From an uncultured Eubacteriales bacterium (GTDB taxonomy: Bacteria; Bacillota_A; Clostridia; Peptostreptococcales; Anaerovoracaceae): a stretch of 25,568 nt of DNA. Under the pieces are notes generated by a model. The model did no database searches. It had not been told where the DNA came from and worked only from the letters and a program-made list of their open reading frames with translations. Location of the stretch: positions 1-25,568 of the forward strand of contig CADATR010000005.1 in assembly GCA_902790885.1 (NCBI GenBank). Direction: 5' to 3'. A program made the position numbers and the translations under genes. The first letter of the stretch is position 1. Every line of letters starts with the position of its first letter. Below, piece after piece: positions 1 through 25,568 of the stretch.

Positions 1-257
1 TGATCCTTATATGTCCTGACTGCCGCGTATATTATGAGGCTCGGATCCTCGAGCTTCGAAACATCGAAAGGCTCGGTGAATATCGCTCCTTCTCTCTCAA
101 CAAATACGCGGTTCCTCGAATTTACCGACCGTCCCATAATAAAATATGCGATGACCGCTTTGGTGCCATCGCAGGACAGTCCGACTACGATGCCGCGGCC
201 GGGATATCTGTTTCCCTCTACCACATCACCGAATTTCATGACTTTATATGTGTCCAT
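1..257 (-). CDS. purO: IMP cyclohydrolase, stand-alone (PurO-like), 3' part missing
   Basis: The first 85 residues of a protein that runs off the left edge. It should close FAICAR to IMP, the last step of purine synthesis. What I see: a start ATG at 257 preceded by AGGAG, and near the N-terminus the block GNRYPGRGIVVG, followed by AYFIMGRSVNSRNR, which I recognise as the monofunctional IMP cyclohydrolase family (archaeal PurO type, COG3363) rather than bifunctional PurH. The start overlaps the end of purN by 14 bases, so translation is probably coupled. Position as the last visible gene of the pur operon fits the last pathway step. If this enzyme replaces the PurH cyclohydrolase domain, a separate AICAR formyltransferase is needed, possibly just beyond the edge. 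The symbol is borrowed from the archaeal enzyme. Confidence 0.82.
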   Translation of the reverse strand, partial: MDTYKVMKFGDVVEGNRYPGRGIVVGLSCDGTKAVIAYFIMGRSVNSRNRVFVEREGAIFTEPFDVSKLEDPSLIIYAAVRTYKD

Positions 258-867
258 GTCTCTCCTTTACTATTTTGCGGCAGATCTTTGCCACCGCTAC
301 CGGCAGAATAAGCCACTCGGCCTGTTCCATTACACGCCTCTGGAGCACTTCAGGCGTATCGCCCTCTTCAACACTGACTGCCTTCTGAGCGATGATCTCT
401 CCGCCGTCAGCGATCTCATTGACGTAATGGACCGTTGCGCCCGTCACCTTAACGCCTCTTTCGAGCGCCGCGATATGCGGTCTGAGCCCATAGAAACCGT
501 CTCCGCAGAACGCAGGTATGAGCGACGGGTGTATGTTGATGATCCTGTGATCGTAACGCGTCACGAATTCCTTGCTGAGTATCATGAGGAATCCGGCCAG
601 CACGATGATATCGATCTTTCTGGAATCGATGAGCTCGCCGCAGGCTTCCTCAAAGCCCGCCTGTCCCCCGCTCGCCTTGCGGGTTATGATGAAGGTCTCG
701 ATGCCTGCCTTGCGGGCACGCTCAACCGCGTACGCGTCTTCCCTGTTTGAGATGACGAGCACTATCTCACCTTTTTCTATGAGGCCGGAATTCTGGGCAT
801 CTATAAGAGCCTGCAGATTCGTGCCTCCGCCGCTTACCATTACGGCGATCCTTGCTTTATCTGACAT
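244..867 (-). CDS. purN: Phosphoribosylglycinamide formyltransferase (GAR transformylase)
   Basis: Transfers a formyl group from 10-formyl-THF to GAR in cytosolic purine synthesis. The product is 207 residues, normal for PurN. The N-terminal loop IAVMVSGGGTNLQAL binds the nucleotide substrate; catalytic residues fit N111 and H113 in NIHPSLIP and D154 in EIADGGEI. The segment after HPSLIP carries a short insertion (AFCGDGFYG), which I associate with clostridial PurN. I chose ATG 867 because GGAGG lies seven bases upstream; a start at 888 would lack this. It lies 119 bases after purM, with two hairpins in that gap, and overlaps the next gene by 14 bases. Confidence 0.96.
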   Translation of the reverse strand: MSDKARIAVMVSGGGTNLQALIDAQNSGLIEKGEIVLVISNREDAYAVERARKAGIETFIITRKASGGQAGFEEACGELIDSRKIDIIVLAGFLMILSKEFVTRYDHRIINIHPSLIPAFCGDGFYGLRPHIAALERGVKVTGATVHYVNEIADGGEIIAQKAVSVEEGDTPEVLQRRVMEQAEWLILPVAVAKICRKIVKERHGHI

Positions 868-986
868 GCGGATACCTCCACAATACAAATTTGTCCGGAG
901 GCGCCCCGCCCCCGAAGATCAATGGTTTCTCTATGAAACCATTATATAATATGTCCGCTCCGAATATCCATACGAAACTCTGTACT
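868..986 (-). other. purM-purN spacer with two hairpins
   Basis: Read on the minus strand, this spacer holds a perfect 9-bp hairpin (arms 935-943 and 921-929, five-base loop) and then a GC-rich 8-bp hairpin with one G-U pair (arms 907-914 and 896-903, three-base loop). There is no run of T after the second stem, so a factor-independent terminator is unlikely. A TATAAT lies at 941-946 on the minus strand but I see no acceptable -35 box. Possible roles are mRNA processing, a stability element or a site that lowers purN expression; none is shown. Confidence 0.5.
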
Positions 987-2048
987 CTATTCGATCACAA
1001 TCTTCTCGGATCCGCGCGCGATGACTCCTATCACATAAGAGTCCTCGCCGTTCTCCCTCAGCACATTCAGGGCCGTCGGAGCATCCTTGCGCGACACTAT
1101 TACCGTCATGCCGACTCCCATGTTGAAGGTGTTGAACATGTCGTGGTCGCTGATGACTCCCACCTTTGCGATAAGATCGAATATAGGCAGCACTCTGATC
1201 ATCTTGCGGGAGATTCTGGCCGTAAGGCCGTCAGGGATCGAACGCGGGATGTTCTCATAGAATCCGCCGCCTGTGATATGGGATATACCCTTTATGTTCT
1301 CTGCGCCGAGTCTGTCGATAAGTGCCAGAATTGGCTTTACATAGATCTTTGTAGGCGCGAGAAGAGTATCTCCGAGTGCTTTTCCGCCCAGCTCTGCATT
1401 GCTCGCCTTCAAAGCCATGACGTCAGGCTTGTCCAGAGCGAATACTCTGCGAACCAGCGAGAAACCGTTCGAGTGAACGCCGCTCGATGGAAGCGCCAGG
1501 ATCACATCGCCCTCAGCCATGCGGCTGTTGTCTATCATTTTGTCCTTATCTACGACGCCTGTGCAGTATCCCGCGAGGTCGTATTCGTTTACCGGATAGA
1601 AGCCCGGCATCTCCGCAGTCTCGCCGCCGATGAGAGCGGCTCCTGCCTGTACGCAGCCCTCGCATACTCCCGACACTATCTGCTCTATCTTTTCAGGATA
1701 GTTTTTGCCGCAGGCGATGTAATCAAGAAAGAACAACGGCTTTGCGCCCACGCAGATGACATCGTTGACACACATCGCGACGCAGTCGATGCCGATGGTA
1801 TCATGCTTGTCAAGCATGAACGCGAGCTTGAGTTTTGTACCTACTCCGTCAGTGCCGCTTACCAGCACAGGTTTGCTGATGCCCTCGAGATCGAGCTCAA
1901 ACAGCCCGCCGAATCCTCCGACCTGGCCCATCACTCCCGGGACCACAGTCCTGGCGATGTGCTTCTTCATGAGTTCGACCGCTTTGTAGCCCGCCGTTAT
2001 ATCGACTCCCGCTGCTTTATAACTGTTTGATGATGAATTCGTAATCAT
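987..2048 (-). CDS. purM: Phosphoribosylformylglycinamidine cyclo-ligase (AIR synthetase)
   Basis: Cytosolic ATP-dependent ring closure of FGAM to AIR. The 353-residue product has the family's N-terminal SYKAAGVDI block, then [16 protein letters not shown] (ATP/substrate loop), the [22 protein letters not shown] segment in two overlapping parts, and the [16 protein letters not shown] segment (here [14 protein letters not shown]). [10 protein letters not shown] and GISHITGGG are also present. It starts at ATG 2048, preceded by GAAGGT, 40 bases after purF. Nothing is missing and the length is normal. Confidence 0.97.
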
Positions 2049-2088: not shown

Positions 2089-3519
2089 CTAGTCATCCCT
2101 GCCTGTCCAGCAGTACTTGCAAAGCTTGCACGACGGAAGCCCGATAGCCTCAACTACTCCTTCAAGAGTCTGGAACTCCAGTGTTTCGAATCCCATTCTC
2201 TCCGCGATCACCTCGCGCATCCTGCGACCGCGCTCTGTATTTGCGTCCGAATACTCGTCTATATGCTCCAGTCCCTCTTCACCCTCGATCTCAACGATGA
2301 TCCTCCTTGAGAGCAGATCCATGTCGCTCTTGTTGCGCGAGAAGTTGAGATACTTACACGCGTACATGATAGGCGGGCATGCCGATCTCATATGCACCGA
2401 CTCAGCACCGTTGGCGTACAGGAAATCTACTGTCTCGCGAAGCTGCGTTCCCCTTACGATCGAGTCATCCACAAAGAGCAGTCTTTTGCCTTTTATGAGC
2501 TCAGTCACAGGGATCTGTTTCATCTTCGCCACCTTGTTGCGCTCCTCCTGCGTTGTAGGCATGAAGCTGCGCGCCCAGGTAGGCGTATATTTGATGAAGG
2601 CCCTCGCGAACGGCAGATGCGTTTCGTTGGAATAGCCTATCGCGTGAGGCGTGCCGCTGTCAGGCACACCGCCTACATAGTCGACCTGAGAAGTGTCGAA
2701 ACCGTGCTCCATGTCGTTGCGCGCCATGATGCGGCCGTTTCTGTAACGCATCACCTCGACGTTCTCGCCCTCATAGGTAGTCGTCGGATAGCCGTAGTAG
2801 CTCCACAGGAAAGCGCAGATCTTCATCTCGTCTCCCGGAGCCATGAGCTGCCTGCACCCGCCCGGCGTGAGTTCCACTATCTCTCCCGGGCCAAGATCGT
2901 GCAGTTCATCGAATCCCGCCTTGTGCAGGGCGAAGGACTCGAAGCTTACAGCCGAAGCGTTTTCGCCTGTCGCCACGCTCATAGGGAGCCTTCCCTTAAG
3001 ATCGCGTGCCGCGACTATGCTGCCGCCCTCTTTCAGCACGAGTATGGTGGCCGATCCGTCTATCGTCTCCTGAGCATATCTGATGCCCTCCACGAGATCG
3101 TCCTTTTCGGAGATGAGCGCCGCGAGGAGCTCTGTCTGGTTGATCCTTCCGCCTGTCATGGCTTCGAGATGCCCGTGCGAGCCCTTGAGCACTATGTCTG
3201 TGATCTCTTTGACGTTATTGATGATGCCGACTGTGCATATCGCGTACGTGCCGCTGACCGAGCGGAAGAGAAGCGGCTGAGGATCCATGTCGCTTATGCA
3301 TCCGATGGCAGCCTTTCCCTTCATCTTGCCGATAATCCCTCCGAACTTCGTCCGGAAAGGAGCGTTTTCAATATTGTGGATCTCGCGCTGGAAGCCGATC
3401 TCTTCGTCGTATGAGGCCAGTCCGCCGCGGCGCGTGCCGAGGTGGGAGTGGTAGTCTACGCCGAAATAGACGTCAAGTATGCAGTTTTCGTTCGATGTTA
3501 TACCGAAGAATCCTCCCAT
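2089..3519 (-). CDS. purF: PurF-like PRPP amidotransferase with a degenerate glutaminase site
   Basis: PurF makes phosphoribosylamine from PRPP and glutamine, the first committed purine step. This 476-residue homologue has an N-terminal Ntn/class II amidotransferase-like domain (about 1-230) and a C-terminal phosphoribosyltransferase domain with the PRPP loop FVDDSIVRGT (349-358). Four cysteines align with the Fe-S ligands of the Bacillus enzyme: C235, C388, C464 and C467, with an extra C470. The N-terminus reads MGGFFG where active enzymes have Cys-Gly-x-Phe-Gly, so the nucleophile is Gly2. By my alignment the oxyanion Asn is V97, the Asp of the SDTE block is Q128 and the Arg of HxRY is replaced too. 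No upstream start can supply the Cys, because the purC stop codon is in frame seven codons upstream. It is the only purF in the window and sits between purC and purM. It may use free ammonia or a partner glutaminase. Confidence 0.88.
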   Translation of the reverse strand: MGGFFGITSNENCILDVYFGVDYHSHLGTRRGGLASYDEEIGFQREIHNIENAPFRTKFGGIIGKMKGKAAIGCISDMDPQPLLFRSVSGTYAICTVGIINNVKEITDIVLKGSHGHLEAMTGGRINQTELLAALISEKDDLVEGIRYAQETIDGSATILVLKEGGSIVAARDLKGRLPMSVATGENASAVSFESFALHKAGFDELHDLGPGEIVELTPGGCRQLMAPGDEMKICAFLWSYYGYPTTTYEGENVEVMRYRNGRIMARNDMEHGFDTSQVDYVGGVPDSGTPHAIGYSNETHLPFARAFIKYTPTWARSFMPTTQEERNKVAKMKQIPVTELIKGKRLLFVDDSIVRGTQLRETVDFLYANGAESVHMRSACPPIMYACKYLNFSRNKSDMDLLSRRIIVEIEGEEGLEHIDEYSDANTERGRRMREVIAERMGFETLEFQTLEGVVEAIGLPSCKLCKYCWTGRDD

Positions 3520-3534
3520 ATATACCCTTTCTTC

Positions 3535-4215
3535 CTATGCAAAGAACAGCTCGTTCAGCTTGAGCGGCTCGATATATTCGCCGTTCTTGTATACGCGCAT
3601 GTTGCCGGATGCGATCTCGTCGATCAGCATTACCTTGCCGTCTGCGTCATATCCGAACTCGAACTTGATATCATAGAGGTCGAGTCCCTTTTCCTTCATG
3701 TCGTCTGCTACGATCTTTGTGATCTTCTGTGTCATGTCTCTGAGGTCGTCATACTGCTCTTCTGTCATGACTCCGAGAACCACCAGGCCGTCCTTTGTTA
3801 CCAGTGGATCGCCGAGTGCGTCGTTCTTGAAGGTCGTCTCGACATAGTAAGGCAGATCTGTACCCGGCTCTACGTATTCACCGTATCTCTTGATGAAACT
3901 GCCTACTGCCTTAAGTCTGCAGATGACCTCGAGTCCGTGTCCGAATACTTTGGCCGGCTTTACTTCCATTGTAGTGTCATCGAAGTTGGCCTGAACGTAA
4001 TGAGTCCTGATGCCTGCTTCATTGATCTTCTTGAAGTAGTAATCAGTCATCTGAAGGTTGATGTCGCCTACGCCTTCGATGGTCAGTCCGATCTGGTTCT
4101 CGCCCGGATCAAACTTTCCGTCCTTGCCTGTGACATCATCCTTGAACTTCAGAAGATAGTTGCCGTTCTCAAGTTCAAATACGTTTTTGGTCTTGCCTGT
4201 GTAAACCAGTTTCAT
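3535..4215 (-). CDS. purC: SAICAR synthetase
   Basis: Joins CAIR and aspartate with ATP to give SAICAR in the cytosol. The 226-residue product is of normal length and begins [14 protein letters not shown], the family's nucleotide-binding strand-turn. Further on it has [22 protein letters not shown] and, near the C-terminus, [20 protein letters not shown], the segment carrying the acidic metal/substrate residues. The start ATG at 4215 has a strong AAGGAGG site. Only 15 bases separate it from purF. The 207 bases upstream, before purE, contain a long inverted-repeat element. Confidence 0.97.
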
Positions 4216-4422: not shown

Positions 4423-4911
4423 TTAAATGCGGTCGGCTATGCCTGCATCTTTGGCCAGTACTGCTTCTGACTCTGCTTTGCGGCGGTCGATCAGTGCCTG
4501 TGCGAGGCTGTCGTCTGAAAGTGCGAGCATCTCTGCGGCAAGCAGCGCCGCGTTTTTACCTCCGTCGATCGCGACTGTTGCGACCGGGATGCCGCTCGGC
4601 ATCATCACGGTCGACAGAAGAGCGTCCATGCCGTCGAGAGCGGCGCTTTTGCATGGCACTCCGATGACCGGGAGCGTAGTGTTTGCAGCGATCGCTCCCG
4701 CCAGATGAGCTGCCATGCCGGCGAAGGCGATTATAACGCCGAAGCCTTCGTCCCTTGCCGCCTTAGTCCAGGCGCTTGCCTCCTCAGGCGTGCGGTGCGC
4801 GGAATATACATGCGCTTCAAACGGTATGCCAAGCGCTTTCAGCACGGATGCAGCCTTCTGCACTATCGGCAGATCGCTGTCGCTTCCCATGATAAGTCCG
4901 ACTTTCTTCAT
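4423..4911 (-). CDS. purE: N5-CAIR mutase / AIR carboxylase, PurE
   Basis: Supplies CAIR for PurC in the cytosol. At 162 residues it has normal PurE length. GSDSD (9-13) binds the substrate phosphate, SAHRTP carries the catalytic His39, and GMAAHLAG and [12 protein letters not shown] follow in the right order. The pattern fits the bacterial class I enzyme, which normally works with PurK; no purK is visible here. ATG 4911 follows the VanZ-like stop codon by two bases, and its AGGGGG ribosome site overlaps that stop, so the two genes are in one transcript and probably coupled. Confidence 0.95.
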
Positions 4912-5588: not shown

Positions 5589-5618
5589 TTGAGCGCTCAG
5601 TCCGTGTCTTTCTATAAT
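5589..5618 (+). promoter_or_regulatory. Promoter of the SH3b/propeller gene with overlapping palindrome
   Basis: TTGAGC (5589-5594), an 18-base spacer and a perfect TATAAT (5613-5618). The leader would be about 70 bases. The palindrome TGAGCGCTCA (5590-5599) overlaps the -35 box, which is where a repressor would bind; no regulator is identified. Confidence 0.55.
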
Positions 5619-5696
5619 TTGAATGGGCATATACCGGCCTTGCATGGAAAACGCTCAAAGCCGGTCAGTTCTCATCTGAAAAAAGGCGGGATCAAA

Positions 5697-7049
5697 ATGA
5701 ATTGTAAGAAACGCATTTCAACACACAAGTTCGTTACAGTGCTGCTCGCGGCTGCCATGGTATTTGCGGCTCTGCCGTTGTTCACCGCGCCTGCATTCGC
5801 AGACGGAAACATATCAGTATCAGCAAGCGGCAGAATCTCCGATGACGAGGTCAACCTCAGAAAGGGTACCAATACCTCAACGGAATCCCTGTGTACCCTG
5901 AGCAGGAATACCAAGCTGACCATCCACAGGGAAATATTCAAGGATGATACGGATACGTCAGCATCGCAGCGCTGGTACTATGTTACAGCGGGCAAAAGAG
6001 ACGGCTATGTCAGGGCGGATTTTGTGAAAGACATCAGCTACGGCAACGCTGCTGCCTCATCTACGGATGCCCTTAACTACAGGATCGGGCCGGCAGCCTC
6101 ATTCAGAAAGTTAGGCACCGTAGCTGAAGGCACCTCCATTACGCTCCAGCTTCCGGCAAGGCTCTCCGGACACAGCGATATATGGTACAGGGCTGTTATC
6201 AACGGAAGCACCGCATACATTAACGGCAGATACGCTGCTGCCCTCATCAGAAAATCCTCAGCGGACCTCAGCAGCAAGTCCGAGCTTGCGAAGGCTCTGC
6301 TCGCCAGCCCTACCCGCGGCGGCAAAGCAAGAGTCGTCTACACATTTACACCGGAAAACTGCAAGAAGCTGTTCCCTATCACCGGAACCAGGATCGCCAA
6401 AGTGCCTCAGGGTTTCACCTTCACGGGCAGCGAGTACCATATCGTGTACGGTATGGCTGCGGGCCAGTCCGTAGTCACATACTCCGCCGACGGCAAACGT
6501 CTGGGAGCGTCTGATTTCTCCTTCTGCATAGGTCATCCTAACGGCATCACCTGGGATCCTGTCACCAGAATGTGCTATGTCTTTAAGGGCAATCAGAAGA
6601 CCATATACACATGGAACCCGTCAACAAAAAAATTCGGCAAGGCAAAGACTCCATACTCATCGTCGGGCGTGGGCTATGACAATGCCACCGGCCTTATATA
6701 CGCAACATCGCATACCGGAATAAGAGCATACAGCGCGGATGGCAGTTTCGATCACAAGAGCCTCTTCTCCAGATGCTCTCCGGGCTTCTTCCACTACATA
6801 CAGGACTGCGGAGCCGGTGAGGGATTCATATTCCACGGCATCAGCGGTGCCAACAAGAGGACTCAGAATCAGCTGGATATCTACAGGGCAGCCGACAAAG
6901 CATATCTTGGATCCATCAAGATAGATCTGGGCGAGATAGAAAGCGCAGCGGTCGGCAGCGACGGTTATCTTAACCTCCTCATCAACACCATGGGTGACGA
7001 TACCGATTACATCTGGAGGACTCCGCTCAATGTAAAAGAGCTGAAATAG
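5697..7049 (+). CDS. Secreted protein, two SH3b domains plus propeller-like domain
   Basis: A 450-residue exported protein. I chose ATG 5697 rather than an upstream frame start at 5589 because it is preceded by AAGGCGGG and begins a classic signal peptide (basic KKR, hydrophobic core, cleavage after A35 in PAFA). Two bacterial SH3-like domains follow, about 46-112 (VNLRKG, GYVRADFV) and 118-182 (LNYRIGP, AYINGRY); such domains commonly bind peptidoglycan. Residues 210-450 form a domain shared with the minus-strand gene ending at 8134: VPQGFTFTG, IVYGM, GHPNG (279-283), GVGYD, QDCG and DYIWRTPLN recur in the same order. The repeating strand-turn pattern suggests a beta-propeller, by inference. 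No catalytic residues are evident. It stands alone on the plus strand with its own promoter and terminator. Confidence 0.85.
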   Translation: MNCKKRISTHKFVTVLLAAAMVFAALPLFTAPAFADGNISVSASGRISDDEVNLRKGTNTSTESLCTLSRNTKLTIHREIFKDDTDTSASQRWYYVTAGKRDGYVRADFVKDISYGNAAASSTDALNYRIGPAASFRKLGTVAEGTSITLQLPARLSGHSDIWYRAVINGSTAYINGRYAAALIRKSSADLSSKSELAKALLASPTRGGKARVVYTFTPENCKKLFPITGTRIAKVPQGFTFTGSEYHIVYGMAAGQSVVTYSADGKRLGASDFSFCIGHPNGITWDPVTRMCYVFKGNQKTIYTWNPSTKKFGKAKTPYSSSGVGYDNATGLIYATSHTGIRAYSADGSFDHKSLFSRCSPGFFHYIQDCGAGEGFIFHGISGANKRTQNQLDIYRAADKAYLGSIKIDLGEIESAAVGSDGYLNLLINTMGDDTDYIWRTPLNVKELK

Positions 7050-8133: not shown

Positions 8134-9672
8134 TTAGCTTCCCAGGCCTTCGCCCAGAGTTTCTATGTTAAGGTCTGTTTTCCAGATGTAATCGACACTG
8201 CTCGAATTGTTGGCGAGTATCTCGAGGAAGCCGTCCTTGTTGACTATACAGCTCTCCACCTCGGAAAGGTCGCACGAGATCGTTCCGAGATATCTGCCGT
8301 TCTTCATATCATAGATATCTATGTAATTTGTGCCGTGCTTGCTGCTGCCCGACAGGCATCTCAGCATTATGCCGGCATGGCCGCCGCAGTCCTGCGTGTA
8401 TGTTTTACCGCTGTGCTTCACTACCCCGCAGCTGTATTTGACGCTGAAGCCATCGGCCATGTCGTAAGCCACCATCGCCGTGCGTGAGCAGGTATACAGG
8501 AGCTTCTCCTTTCTGTCATAGCCTATACCCGAGCAGCCGTATGCCAGATTCTGCGTTCCGTAGCTGTCCGAAGTCGGTTCATATGTATATACTTTTGAGG
8601 TCCAGCCCTTTGCGCAGTAGCAGAGCCCGTTCTCATCGGCATACGCAAATCCGTTCGGATGCCCCATCGACACCTTCGGTACGCTTACCTCCTTGCCGTC
8701 TCCGTCAACATCAAAGCTGATGACGCGGTTAGGGCTGCCCATTCCGTATACTACGATGTACTTATCTCCGGTATATGCGAGGCCCTGCGGTATAACAGCG
8801 CCCCCGGCTCCCGTGATGCTCTTTGCCACCTCGCAGTTGTCAGGGCTGAGGTGATATATGACATGCGCCGATGCTCCGCCTGCACTAACGGGATACGAGT
8901 CGATTACCCTGAGACTTACGGTCTTGCTTGCGCTTTCATATTTTGAGGAAGACCTTGCCGTAGCAGTTATCTCGGTCTCTCCGGCTCCGGTTATCTTTAT
9001 CTCGTTCGTCTCCGGATCTACCACCGCGACCTCCGGATCCGCTGTCTCATACATGAGATCAGTCTCGGCGGAGAGATTCATACTGAAAGGTTCGCTGAAG
9101 GTGAACTTCGTAATCATCCTGCCGCCCTTTATCTCCTGCGTTCTCTTGGTCCTGAAGCTGCGAGGTCCGGTAAGAGTGCCCTCTTTTTCCTTGCTGTCAG
9201 CCCTTACGACGAAGGAATATGACGCGTTTTTTTTGAGATCTCCGACCGTTATCTCCGGCACGTCTGTCTCCAGCTCAGTCCAGCTGTCATCTATAACGAG
9301 TTCTTCCTCTTCCTCTTCTTCCTCATCAGATGCAGCGCCGTCTTCCGCAGCTTCTTCAGGCACGTCCTCTCTGTACCACACCTTGTAAACATCTGCGTTG
9401 CGCGCCTCGTCCCAGCTCACGATGATGTAGTCCGAGCCTCTGCCCGGAGAGCTGATCGAATCTCTTTTTACCTTGCCCGGATATGTATTGTAATGATTGA
9501 GTGCCGTGACAAATGTAAGAACGAGCATCACCACCAGCAGGATCGAAGCAATGGAAAAGAACCTGATCCATCTGTGCAGATCAGGCGGCCTGCGGTGCAG
9601 CTTGCGGCTCTCAGGCTCCCTCTTCTTTCTTTCCGCTTTTTTGACTTTTCTTCCGCGTATGTAATGCGGCAT
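8134..9672 (-). CDS. Membrane-anchored surface protein: FN3, Ig-like and propeller-like domains
   Basis: A 512-residue protein from ATG 9672, chosen because GGAGAG precedes it and the promoter predicts transcription starting near 9723. A GTG at 9723 would add 17 residues. A very basic N-terminus (1-34) and one membrane helix (about 36-58) predict a single-pass protein with its bulk outside. Then come an FN3-like domain (about 62-190: IIVSWDEARNADVYKVWYR, SYSFVVRA), a BIG2-like domain (about 195-265: ITGAGETEITATA) and the propeller-like domain (267-512). The FN3-like domain carries an acidic insertion with eight Glu in a row. The last domain repeats the blocks of the gene at 5697: IPQGLAYTG, VVYGM, GHPNG (337-341), GIGYD, QDCG, YLGTI and DYIWKTDLN. 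Function unknown; a structural or binding role at the surface is inferred. Confidence 0.82.
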   Translation of the reverse strand: MPHYIRGRKVKKAERKKREPESRKLHRRPPDLHRWIRFFSIASILLVVMLVLTFVTALNHYNTYPGKVKRDSISSPGRGSDYIIVSWDEARNADVYKVWYREDVPEEAAEDGAASDEEEEEEEELVIDDSWTELETDVPEITVGDLKKNASYSFVVRADSKEKEGTLTGPRSFRTKRTQEIKGGRMITKFTFSEPFSMNLSAETDLMYETADPEVAVVDPETNEIKITGAGETEITATARSSSKYESASKTVSLRVIDSYPVSAGGASAHVIYHLSPDNCEVAKSITGAGGAVIPQGLAYTGDKYIVVYGMGSPNRVISFDVDGDGKEVSVPKVSMGHPNGFAYADENGLCYCAKGWTSKVYTYEPTSDSYGTQNLAYGCSGIGYDRKEKLLYTCSRTAMVAYDMADGFSVKYSCGVVKHSGKTYTQDCGGHAGIMLRCLSGSSKHGTNYIDIYDMKNGRYLGTISCDLSEVESCIVNKDGFLEILANNSSSVDYIWKTDLNIETLGEGLGS

Positions 9673-9729
9673 ATACTGACTCTCCATTAATCTGTGCCGG
9701 CCCCTGACATCATAGCCAGACACTCTTCG

Positions 9730-23383: not shown

Positions 23384-25568
23384 CTATCTGCCCATGATCG
23401 CTTCTACAGCTTCATCTGAGATCAGTGCAGGGCCACCCAGGGTGATCGATCTGATCGCGCCCGCACCTTTTATATAATTTTTTGCAGTTTCGGTGTTAAC
23501 GGAATCCGTCAGGATGATTGGTGCGCTTTCCTGCATCGCCAGAGGTCCGCCTGAAAGTCCGTCCGGGAAGTTCAGTGCATATGCCAGCACTACTGTTTCT
23601 GTCTTCTTGAAGAACTTCTTTGCTACCGCTGCAGATGTCTCATATCTGGTCTGCCCTGCAAGCCGCACTGTAGTTAAACCAAGGTCTTTAAGGCCTTTCT
23701 CTACAGCTGGCCTGACCGCTCCTGTCCCCCCTATAAGGTAGAACTGTTTTGACCGCAGACCCTTGATATATTTCTTTTGCGCATCTGTAAGAGAGTTGCC
23801 TACCAGAAGGATAGGCTTGCCTGCTGCTGATGCCGACAGGCTGTCTGCATATCCGTTCCCCGTGCATACAAGAATGTCCTCAGCCTTAGCGCCCGCAGCC
23901 CTGAGGATAGCCAGATTTGTATCGTACCGGGTCTTTCCTCCGAGTCTTGTTGTTGATATTCCTTTAGCTCTTACTTTGCTCTCGAACTCGGAACTCACTA
24001 CTCCTGTTCCGCCAAGAATGTATACCGTTCCTATAGGCAGGATGTTTTCACTGATATAGTCAACTATTCTGTCTTCTTCGTTCGGTTCTACCAGGAGTAT
24101 CGGTGCGTTCTTCACCTTTGCCAGATATCCGCCGGACAGTGCGTCAGGGAAGTTTTTTCCATATGCTACTATAACATTATCGAATTTCGATCCTGATGCG
24201 GACTCATACATTTCTGCCGCATTCACAGCTGTATCATATCTTGTATCTCCGTAGATCCTGATATCTTCCTCCCCTTCTTTGTCAGAAGTATCCTCTCTGA
24301 CTTTGCCTGGTATCAGCAATTCGCTCTTGTCATAAGTGCTCAGACAATCATCGTCATAGGTATAGGTATAATTATAAGTGTATGCCTTTCCAAGCCTACG
24401 AAAACAGTAGTCCGGATATATTCCTGAATACGGTGATTTGCACATAAACAGACCTTCCTCGGCAAGGCTAGTACCACTATCACTGTGTGTCACATCAACC
24501 AGATAGTTATATCCATTATCTAAGCTGACAACGTTCCACATATGCCCGCCGTTCATCAGCGGTGTAGTTAACATTCCGGTGGCAACGATACAATTGACAT
24601 TACCGGTGAAGTCAGTGAGATCACAAAGAAACTTGAAGGCTTTTGAATAGCCTTCGCATACGACATTGGTCAATGGATCCCCGTCAAAAACCCATATGAG
24701 CTGCCAGGGATCCCCATAGGGTTCATTCTTGCTCAAAGTACGATTGTAATCAACCATCCGGCAGATCTCGTCTCCGTATTTAGATAGTCTCTCTCTGTCT
24801 CCGAGCCCATCATACTTACTGACAATATTACACGCGGTTTCTACGATTTCTATAGATGATTGTCCGATTTCCGTGTCAAATTCATATGTTCCCTCCAGCT
24901 TTGTTCCTGTCTCTGTCTTTATCTCCGAGTATGCTGCTGCTACAGGCAGTTTATAGCACATTTTTCCTTCAGCATATATCCTTTCTTCTGTTATATCCAG
25001 TCTTAAAGTGAATCCGCGACATTCTGTACCGTAGGTTTTGTCATACCAATACAGACTATACGGGTTGTCGGCCAGCAATGCATTGATGACCGCTTTGAAG
25101 TCCTGACATTTTTTCTCGGCTGTTTCGATATTTCCATTATAATCTGTCAGGGACGCAAGCCCGAGGTCAGCTGCAGTCCAGTAGTTTTTATTGCCAAATA
25201 CATCTTCAGCTGACATCTCAAAAATAGTGGATGATCTTTTTCCCGCAGCTACTTTGGCAATCTCTGCATTGAGATAATCGTATGCACCTTTATTGGCTCC
25301 CTTCAGCCTGTTTCCGGCAGTCTTTCTGATTCCGGAGCCATATGCCTTCATCTTAAGATAGCCGTCATACAGCTCCTCAGGTTCATCTCCACTGTCTTCC
25401 AGAACGATCTTCTCGTTCTGAGGCTCCACTATGTCGGTCAAATCCTCGCCGTCAGCATCTTCAACGTTATCTGGCAGTTGCTCTGCTTCAAATGACTGAG
25501 CTTCACTCTCTTCAACCGCCTTATCAGTTTCAGCGTCCGGAGTCTCATCCTGATCAGATGACTGAAAA
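23384..25568 (-). CDS. Transglutaminase-like protein with three CWB2 repeats, 5' part missing
   Basis: The frame stays open to the right edge, so the true start (and probably a signal peptide) lies outside; a TTG at 25441 is just an internal Leu. The visible 727 residues begin with an acidic Glu/Asp-rich stretch. A transglutaminase-like domain follows, with a plausible triad: Cys in NVVCEGYSKAF (codon 24656-24658), His in GGHMWNVV (24542-24544) and Asp in YLVDVTHSD (24494-24496). The last ~290 residues are three cell-wall-binding type 2 repeats, each with a TRYDT/TRYET and an NFPDALSGG-type block plus an ILGG/LIGGTG strand. Such repeats hold clostridial surface proteins to the wall by binding anionic polymers. 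The enzyme part may be a protease or cross-linker; its substrate is unknown. Confidence 0.9.
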   Translation of the reverse strand, partial: FQSSDQDETPDAETDKAVEESEAQSFEAEQLPDNVEDADGEDLTDIVEPQNEKIVLEDSGDEPEELYDGYLKMKAYGSGIRKTAGNRLKGANKGAYDYLNAEIAKVAAGKRSSTIFEMSAEDVFGNKNYWTAADLGLASLTDYNGNIETAEKKCQDFKAVINALLADNPYSLYWYDKTYGTECRGFTLRLDITEERIYAEGKMCYKLPVAAAYSEIKTETGTKLEGTYEFDTEIGQSSIEIVETACNIVSKYDGLGDRERLSKYGDEICRMVDYNRTLSKNEPYGDPWQLIWVFDGDPLTNVVCEGYSKAFKFLCDLTDFTGNVNCIVATGMLTTPLMNGGHMWNVVSLDNGYNYLVDVTHSDSGTSLAEEGLFMCKSPYSGIYPDYCFRRLGKAYTYNYTYTYDDDCLSTYDKSELLIPGKVREDTSDKEGEEDIRIYGDTRYDTAVNAAEMYESASGSKFDNVIVAYGKNFPDALSGGYLAKVKNAPILLVEPNEEDRIVDYISENILPIGTVYILGGTGVVSSEFESKVRAKGISTTRLGGKTRYDTNLAILRAAGAKAEDILVCTGNGYADSLSASAAGKPILLVGNSLTDAQKKYIKGLRSKQFYLIGGTGAVRPAVEKGLKDLGLTTVRLAGQTRYETSAAVAKKFFKKTETVVLAYALNFPDGLSGGPLAMQESAPIILTDSVNTETAKNYIKGAGAIRSITLGGPALISDEAVEAIMGR

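Follow-up and report, generated by a model that had tools for sequence, protein, structure and literature searches.

The window, i.e., the whole stretch of 25,568 nucleotides analysed here, carries at one end a set of purine biosynthesis genes encoded on the minus strand in the order purE-purC-purF'-purM-purN, with purF' in the slot of purF. These are purE (AIR carboxylase; 4423..4911; PF00731), purC (SAICAR synthetase; 3535..4215; PF01259), purF' (2089..3519), purM (AIR synthase; 987..2048; PF00586 and PF02769) and purN (GAR transformylase; 244..888; PF00551), followed on the same strand by purO (IMP cyclohydrolase; 3..257; PF07826), which is cut by the window end and was recognized by tblastn with the purO of locus L047. 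The product of purF' is a glutaminase-dead PurF homologue of 476 aa that starts with MGGFFG and scores 157.8 bits against TIGR01134 (NCBIfam), below the cut-off of 350 for canonical PurF. Elsewhere in the window, 5589-7049 on the plus strand and 8134-9723 on the minus strand encode two paralogues that are identical at 33% of 320 aligned positions; the former product has an SH3_3 domain, and the part common to both is without a Pfam match. The product of 23384-25441 on the minus strand contains three cell wall binding 2 stretches (CWB2).

Residues were counted in an alignment of 148 distinct PurF' and 51 distinct canonical PurF proteins from the fetched loci; the former remained after length filtering and removal of duplicates from 168 PurF' open reading frames, two of them N-terminally truncated (L041 and L186). 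An earlier note on this DNA had read a glycine in place of the catalytic N-terminal cysteine and had excluded a longer start, and both points hold. The position of the nucleophile (Gly2; 3514..3516, minus strand, as for all residues below) is occupied by Gly in 147 and by Ser in one of the 148 PurF' proteins, whereas all 51 canonical proteins have Cys, and a cysteine hidden behind a mis-called start is ruled out since the frame offers just five codons upstream of MGGFFG. The three further glutamine-site changes named in the same note were likewise recovered. Val97 (3229..3231) lies at the position of the oxyanion Asn, which is present in 51/51 canonical proteins and replaced in PurF' by Val (95), Ile (44) or Thr (9). 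Gln128 (3136..3138) stands for the glutamine-binding Asp, turning SDTE into NQTE. The Arg of HxRY is lost together with the entire canonical glutamine loop HxRYxTxG, which is deleted in 148/148 PurF' proteins at residues 74-79 (3283..3300). In addition, the Arg of the HRGQ motif, found in 51/51 canonical proteins, is Leu in all 148 PurF' proteins (Leu27; 3439..3441).

The same picture emerges from two database searches, in each of which approximately 8000 candidates were scored and the best 120 examined. The nucleophile position is taken by Gly or Ser in 239 of the resulting 240 homologues, the remaining one being too short, and the pattern H[VIT]RY was found in none of the 240. The statement in the earlier note that similar starts occur in other Clostridia proved well founded, with matches including Desulfoscipio gibsoniae, Pelotomaculum propionicicum and Syntrophomonas; Peptoclostridium acidaminophilum and Bacteroides finegoldii also have members of the class. 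A sequencing error or a lone mutant is ruled out, as the loss is shared by the 148 relatives and the 240 homologues. In a Peptoclostridium-like branch, Ser takes the nucleophile position in 32 of the best 120 of about 8000 candidates (M/L-S-G-F-F-G and similar starts). Serine functions as a nucleophile in other Ntn hydrolases, and these proteins, along with the single Ser-bearing member of the 148, might be taken to mean that PurF' still hydrolyses glutamine, with Ser, the N-terminal amine or water replacing the Cys. However, PurF' has also lost the glutamine loop, the Arg of HRGQ, the oxyanion Asn and the Asp that binds glutamine, and, according to PMC3261824, the Cys-to-Ser mutant of Escherichia coli PurF is without detectable glutamine activity, such that residual glutaminase activity appears highly improbable.

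The phosphoribosyltransferase half of the protein presents a different aspect. The PRPP site, described as kept in the earlier note, is conserved for the most part: the acidic pair and the loop DDSIVRGT (residues 351-358; 2446..2469) are present in 148/148 PurF' proteins, save for an Ile-to-Val exchange in two. Of the four Fe-S cysteines listed in that note, C235 (2815..2817), C388 (2356..2358) and C467 were borne out, each being conserved in 148/148; C464 turned out to be a neighbour of the ligands but no ligand itself, and the fourth is C470, equally invariant (C467 and C470; 2110..2121). A predicted structure has the two-domain PurF fold and aligns with the Bacillus subtilis enzyme (1ao0) at 30% identity. 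The residue directly behind DDSIVRGT is Thr in 51/51 canonical proteins and Gln (Q359) in 148/148 PurF' proteins, and the flexible loop carries a class signature of its own, KYTPTW (residues 310-315; 2575..2592); residues 313-318 in this region have a pLDDT below 50 in the predicted model. The invariance of Q359 and the reshaped flexible loop suggest that substrate handling may differ from that of the canonical enzyme.

The earlier note had proposed aligning homologues to see whether the loss marks a clade, and it does: the 148 relatives are alike, and in a FastTree reconstruction a single branch with support 100 separates 119 PurF' from 13 canonical rows, albeit in a tree with long branches and only these two groups (13 of the 51 canonical rows were used, and L066 was omitted). 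Along the PurF' part of this tree the presence of canonical PurF switches 28 times, of which at least 14 to 16 are forced by the starred branches; a part of these switches may be assembly noise. In the N-terminal domain, 90 pairs give a median dN/dS of 0.112, and in the C-terminal domain 85 pairs give one of 0.095, these values being drawn from pairs with dS above 0 and below 2 that share sequences, and are hence non-independent, and that include some loci that are copies of each other. The N-terminal domain further contains class-specific invariant residues, e.g., H48, R56 and D77. Purifying selection on both domains and these invariant residues rule out a decaying duplicate, and the possession of its own invariant residues suggests that the N-terminal domain does more than admit ammonia.

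Genomic neighbourhoods were annotated by tblastn, and the layout set comprises 83 loci, i.e., 82 from genomes with PurF' as the only PurF and the window itself. The placement of the gene between purC and purM, pointed out in the earlier note, is a recurrent one: in 50 of the 83 loci PurF' has purM on one side and purC or purE on the other, mostly with gaps below 100 bp, and some pur neighbour is present in 77. A second layout, with PurF' between purN and purH, purO or purD, accounts for 25 loci; two have another pur arrangement and six are without a pur neighbour. In genomes with PurF' alone, it is mostly surrounded by purM, purN, purH and purL. IMP formation is often split in the pur operons (L004-L083 and L144-L203) between a PurO-type IMP cyclohydrolase (PF07826) and a short PurH, the latter being in L034 a protein of 394 aa with PF01808 only and no MGS domain; in the other operon layout PurH is full-length and has the MGS domain.

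These layouts bear on the source of the amino group. Separate glutaminase subunits are common among amidotransferases, and the residues conserved in the dead domain could form a docking face, which would suit a two-subunit amidotransferase in which PurF' makes phosphoribosylamine (PRA) with ammonia from a glutaminase acting in trans. Against this, no such gene adjoins PurF'. The short gaps in the 50 loci of the first layout leave no room for a partner gene, making a glutaminase within the operon unlikely. In the second layout, a stretch of about 630 bp behind PurF' was considered as a candidate partner and rejected, as it is the start of purH in 10/10 loci read (five of them with MGS and AICARFT domains by Pfam). 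Moreover, the Sinanaerobacter genome G104 has a single GATase_6 protein, which at 616 aa is GlmS-sized. Judged by these neighbourhoods and by GATase_6 in this one genome, a glutaminase in trans is considered unlikely. Of the two ammonia sources offered in the earlier note, free ammonia or a separate glutaminase, the latter thus loses ground as far as the operon is concerned.

The occupancy of the purF slot itself is informative. It is filled by canonical PurF in four of the five canonical-only genomes read (L218, L219, L222 and L223), whereas the fifth, G058, carries canonical PurF twice (L220 and L221), both times at a distance from pur genes. In three PurF'-only genomes (L156, L158 and L163), PurF' is found elsewhere, and purE-(purC)-purM are contiguous without purF, with about 36, 23 and 29 bp between purE or purC and purM in the respective operons (L210, L211 and L212). 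Canonical PurF and PurF' stand side by side, in both orders, in 7 of 80 loci (L040, L061, L064, L068, L069, L071 and L074) and share one pur operon in L192 and L201. Thus, a single slot may hold canonical PurF, PurF', both or, with PurF' elsewhere, neither, which is the pattern expected of interchangeable enzymes.

The distribution over genomes was surveyed in the family to which the nearest MAG belongs (120 genomes; Anaerovoracaceae judging by its named members), with genome completeness unstated; canonical PurF was called by TIGR01134 above the family cut-off. By these measures, 44 genomes have canonical PurF only, 18 have both, 51 have PurF' only and 7 have neither, so that 62 genomes exceed the cut-off, 113 show a match and 51 of the 69 PurF' carriers are without the canonical enzyme. 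In all 51 PurF'-only genomes the class was confirmed on the gene itself, one being cut at the N-terminus. A second set, sharing three genomes with the first, was taken from at least 593 relatives found by contig scan, of which the best 80 loci were kept and the genomes of 50 among them searched: canonical PurF passes in 16, and PurF' is the sole PurF in 34. In a class-wide survey of 195 genomes based on scores only, 149 are above the canonical cut-off; read from the table, 18 have a best match in the PurF' score range and two more have only partial matches near 1e-80, as against an automatic tally of 19 below the cut-off. These score-based matches were left out of the PurF' counts.

PurD consumes PRA, the product of PurF, and its gene was searched for in 80 of the 120 family genomes (match at E <= 1e-40). 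A match was found in 50 of the 51 PurF'-only genomes (47 above the family cut-off and three partial), in 18/18 genomes with both PurFs, in 3/7 with neither and in 4/4 canonical-only genomes tried. As only three of these 75 purD-bearing genomes are without any PurF, missing assembly is an unlikely cause of a sole PurF'. PurF'-only genomes include Evtepia gabavorous KLE1738 (L065/G040) and, with identities inferred, Sinanaerobacter sp. ZZT-01 (G104; 3.4 Mb, essentially one contig of 3,370,808 bases), Anaerovorax sp. IOR16 (G133) and A. odorimutans (Anaerovorax; G079), while Clostridium aminobutyricum (G125, identity likewise inferred) has both enzymes. When seven PurF'-only genomes (Evtepia gabavorous, G104, G133, G079, G093, G159 and G165) were queried with canonical PurF, each returned only PurF' (30-35% identity) and a GlmS-sized frame of 610-627 aa.

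The absence of a passing canonical PurF from 51/120 family genomes and from 34/50 genomes of the second set makes a purely regulatory role, one of the options raised in the earlier note, unlikely; a role in purine synthesis is supported. A narrower version, that PurF' joins canonical PurF in a mixed oligomer and has a regulatory or structural function there, could be entertained for genomes with both. The side-by-side genes and shared operons described above would suit such a partnership, and crenarchaeal purF and purF' are likewise close neighbours (PMC3261824). With canonical PurF missing in 51 of the 69 family carriers, it cannot be the general role, and it is rated as improbable overall.

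A further alternative is that PurF' has another task, e.g., as a PRPP or nucleotide sensor or in transfer to another amine, with PRA being gained otherwise or purines imported. The class-specific Q359 and flexible loop would accord with this, as would members that lie beside pepT and distant from pur genes. Two such loci are those of Peptoclostridium acidaminophilum (L001; 808-kb replicon) and Bacteroides finegoldii (L002; 45-kb replicon), in both of which PurF' directly precedes pepT (peptidase T), and in the latter also gcvT; neither locus has an annotated pur gene in its vicinity. However, the retention of a purD match in 50 of the 51 PurF'-only genomes and the prevalence of purM, purN, purH and purL around PurF' speak against another task, as does the fact that no other PRA-forming enzyme of comparable flux is known. 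It is accordingly rated as improbable.

Taken with the kept PRPP loop, the finding of PurF' as the sole PurF in genomes in which the remaining pathway is present indicates that its product is most likely PRA, a point that the genomics supports well, and in the absence of a glutaminase gene beside it free ammonia would be the simplest donor. Hence, we consider it fairly probable that PurF' is a PRA synthase working on free ammonia, in which the use of glutamine has been permanently given up. In such an enzyme, PRPP would bind the kept phosphoribosyltransferase site, and NH3 would enter via the N-terminal domain as remodelled by the removal of the nucleophile and the deletion of the glutamine loop; its attack on C1' would yield PRA and pyrophosphate, with PRA then being handed on to PurD. 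Certain observations sit less easily with an ammonia-using PRA synthase. Q359 and the KYTPTW loop are unaccounted for by it, as are the PurF' genes without a pur neighbour (6/83 loci, and those beside pepT in L001 and L002), and the inclusion of MAGs among the PurF'-only genomes and the 28 switches of canonical PurF on the tree count against it. The ammonia-dependent asparagine synthetase AsnA, sampled in 40 of the 51 PurF'-only and 40 of the 44 canonical-only genomes, is no commoner in the former group (32/40 vs 34/40), and its frequencies offer no support for an ammonia economy in PurF'-only genomes. The physiology of A. odorimutans does not count as a point for ammonia, given that PMC11362086 reports the opposite too.

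On a broader scale, PurF' would have replaced canonical PurF in many Clostridia, with both being kept elsewhere, possibly as ammonia- and glutamine-dependent isoenzymes. It appears moderately probable that purine synthesis starts from ammonia in much of the anaerobic Clostridia, an old glutamine-independent PurF having replaced the textbook enzyme many times over and coexisting with it in other genomes as an isoenzyme pair. Gut and sediment anaerobes with PurF' as their only version probably start purine synthesis from ammonia and not from glutamine. In textbooks, purine synthesis depends on glutamine at its first committed step, one at which glutamine-analogue inhibitors are aimed. If the above proposal is true, metabolic models of gut anaerobes would change with respect to glutamine demand and sensitivity to glutamine analogues, the question of the archaeal PurF' would become testable in cultured bacteria and a natural system would be at hand for an ammonia channel without a glutaminase. 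In databases, PurF' proteins are mostly named "amidophosphoribosyltransferase", which hides the difference. Our literature search, with most subscription papers and preprints lying outside it, found no account of a bacterial PurF' class, the sole precedent being PMC3261824.

Relative to canonical PurF (EC 2.4.2.14; B. subtilis 1ao0/1gph and E. coli 1ecf), PurF' is distinguished by being without the nucleophile, the glutamine loop and the oxyanion Asn. A parallel might be struck with the asparagine synthetases, wherein the ammonia-dependent AsnA exists beside the glutamine-dependent AsnB and yields the same product; however, the fold of AsnA is unrelated to that of AsnB, whereas PurF' comes from the same family as the glutamine-dependent enzyme. 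The AsnB framework has itself taken on other chemistry in the beta-lactam and carbapenam synthetases (1jgt and 1q15). The closest likeness is to the crenarchaeal PurF', which PMC3261824 (Biol Direct 2011) describes as a PurF homologue near pur genes without the N-terminal Cys (many members having Ala or Val) and for which it names an ammonia-dependent PRPP aminotransferase as one putative possibility; the bacterial class is also without the nucleophile and near pur genes, the comparison being with this published description only. The same paper records that E. coli PurF with Cys1 changed to Ala or Ser loses the use of glutamine and retains that of ammonia, which is akin to the behaviour proposed here for PurF', although the mutants are engineered single changes, whereas in PurF' a whole site has been lost in evolution. 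A Cys-less PurF is thus known from crenarchaea, every one of which in the sample of that study also has a Cys-bearing PurF; what is new in the bacterial class is the frequent occurrence of PurF' as the sole PurF, with no canonical enzyme accompanying it in 51 of the 69 carriers of the family.
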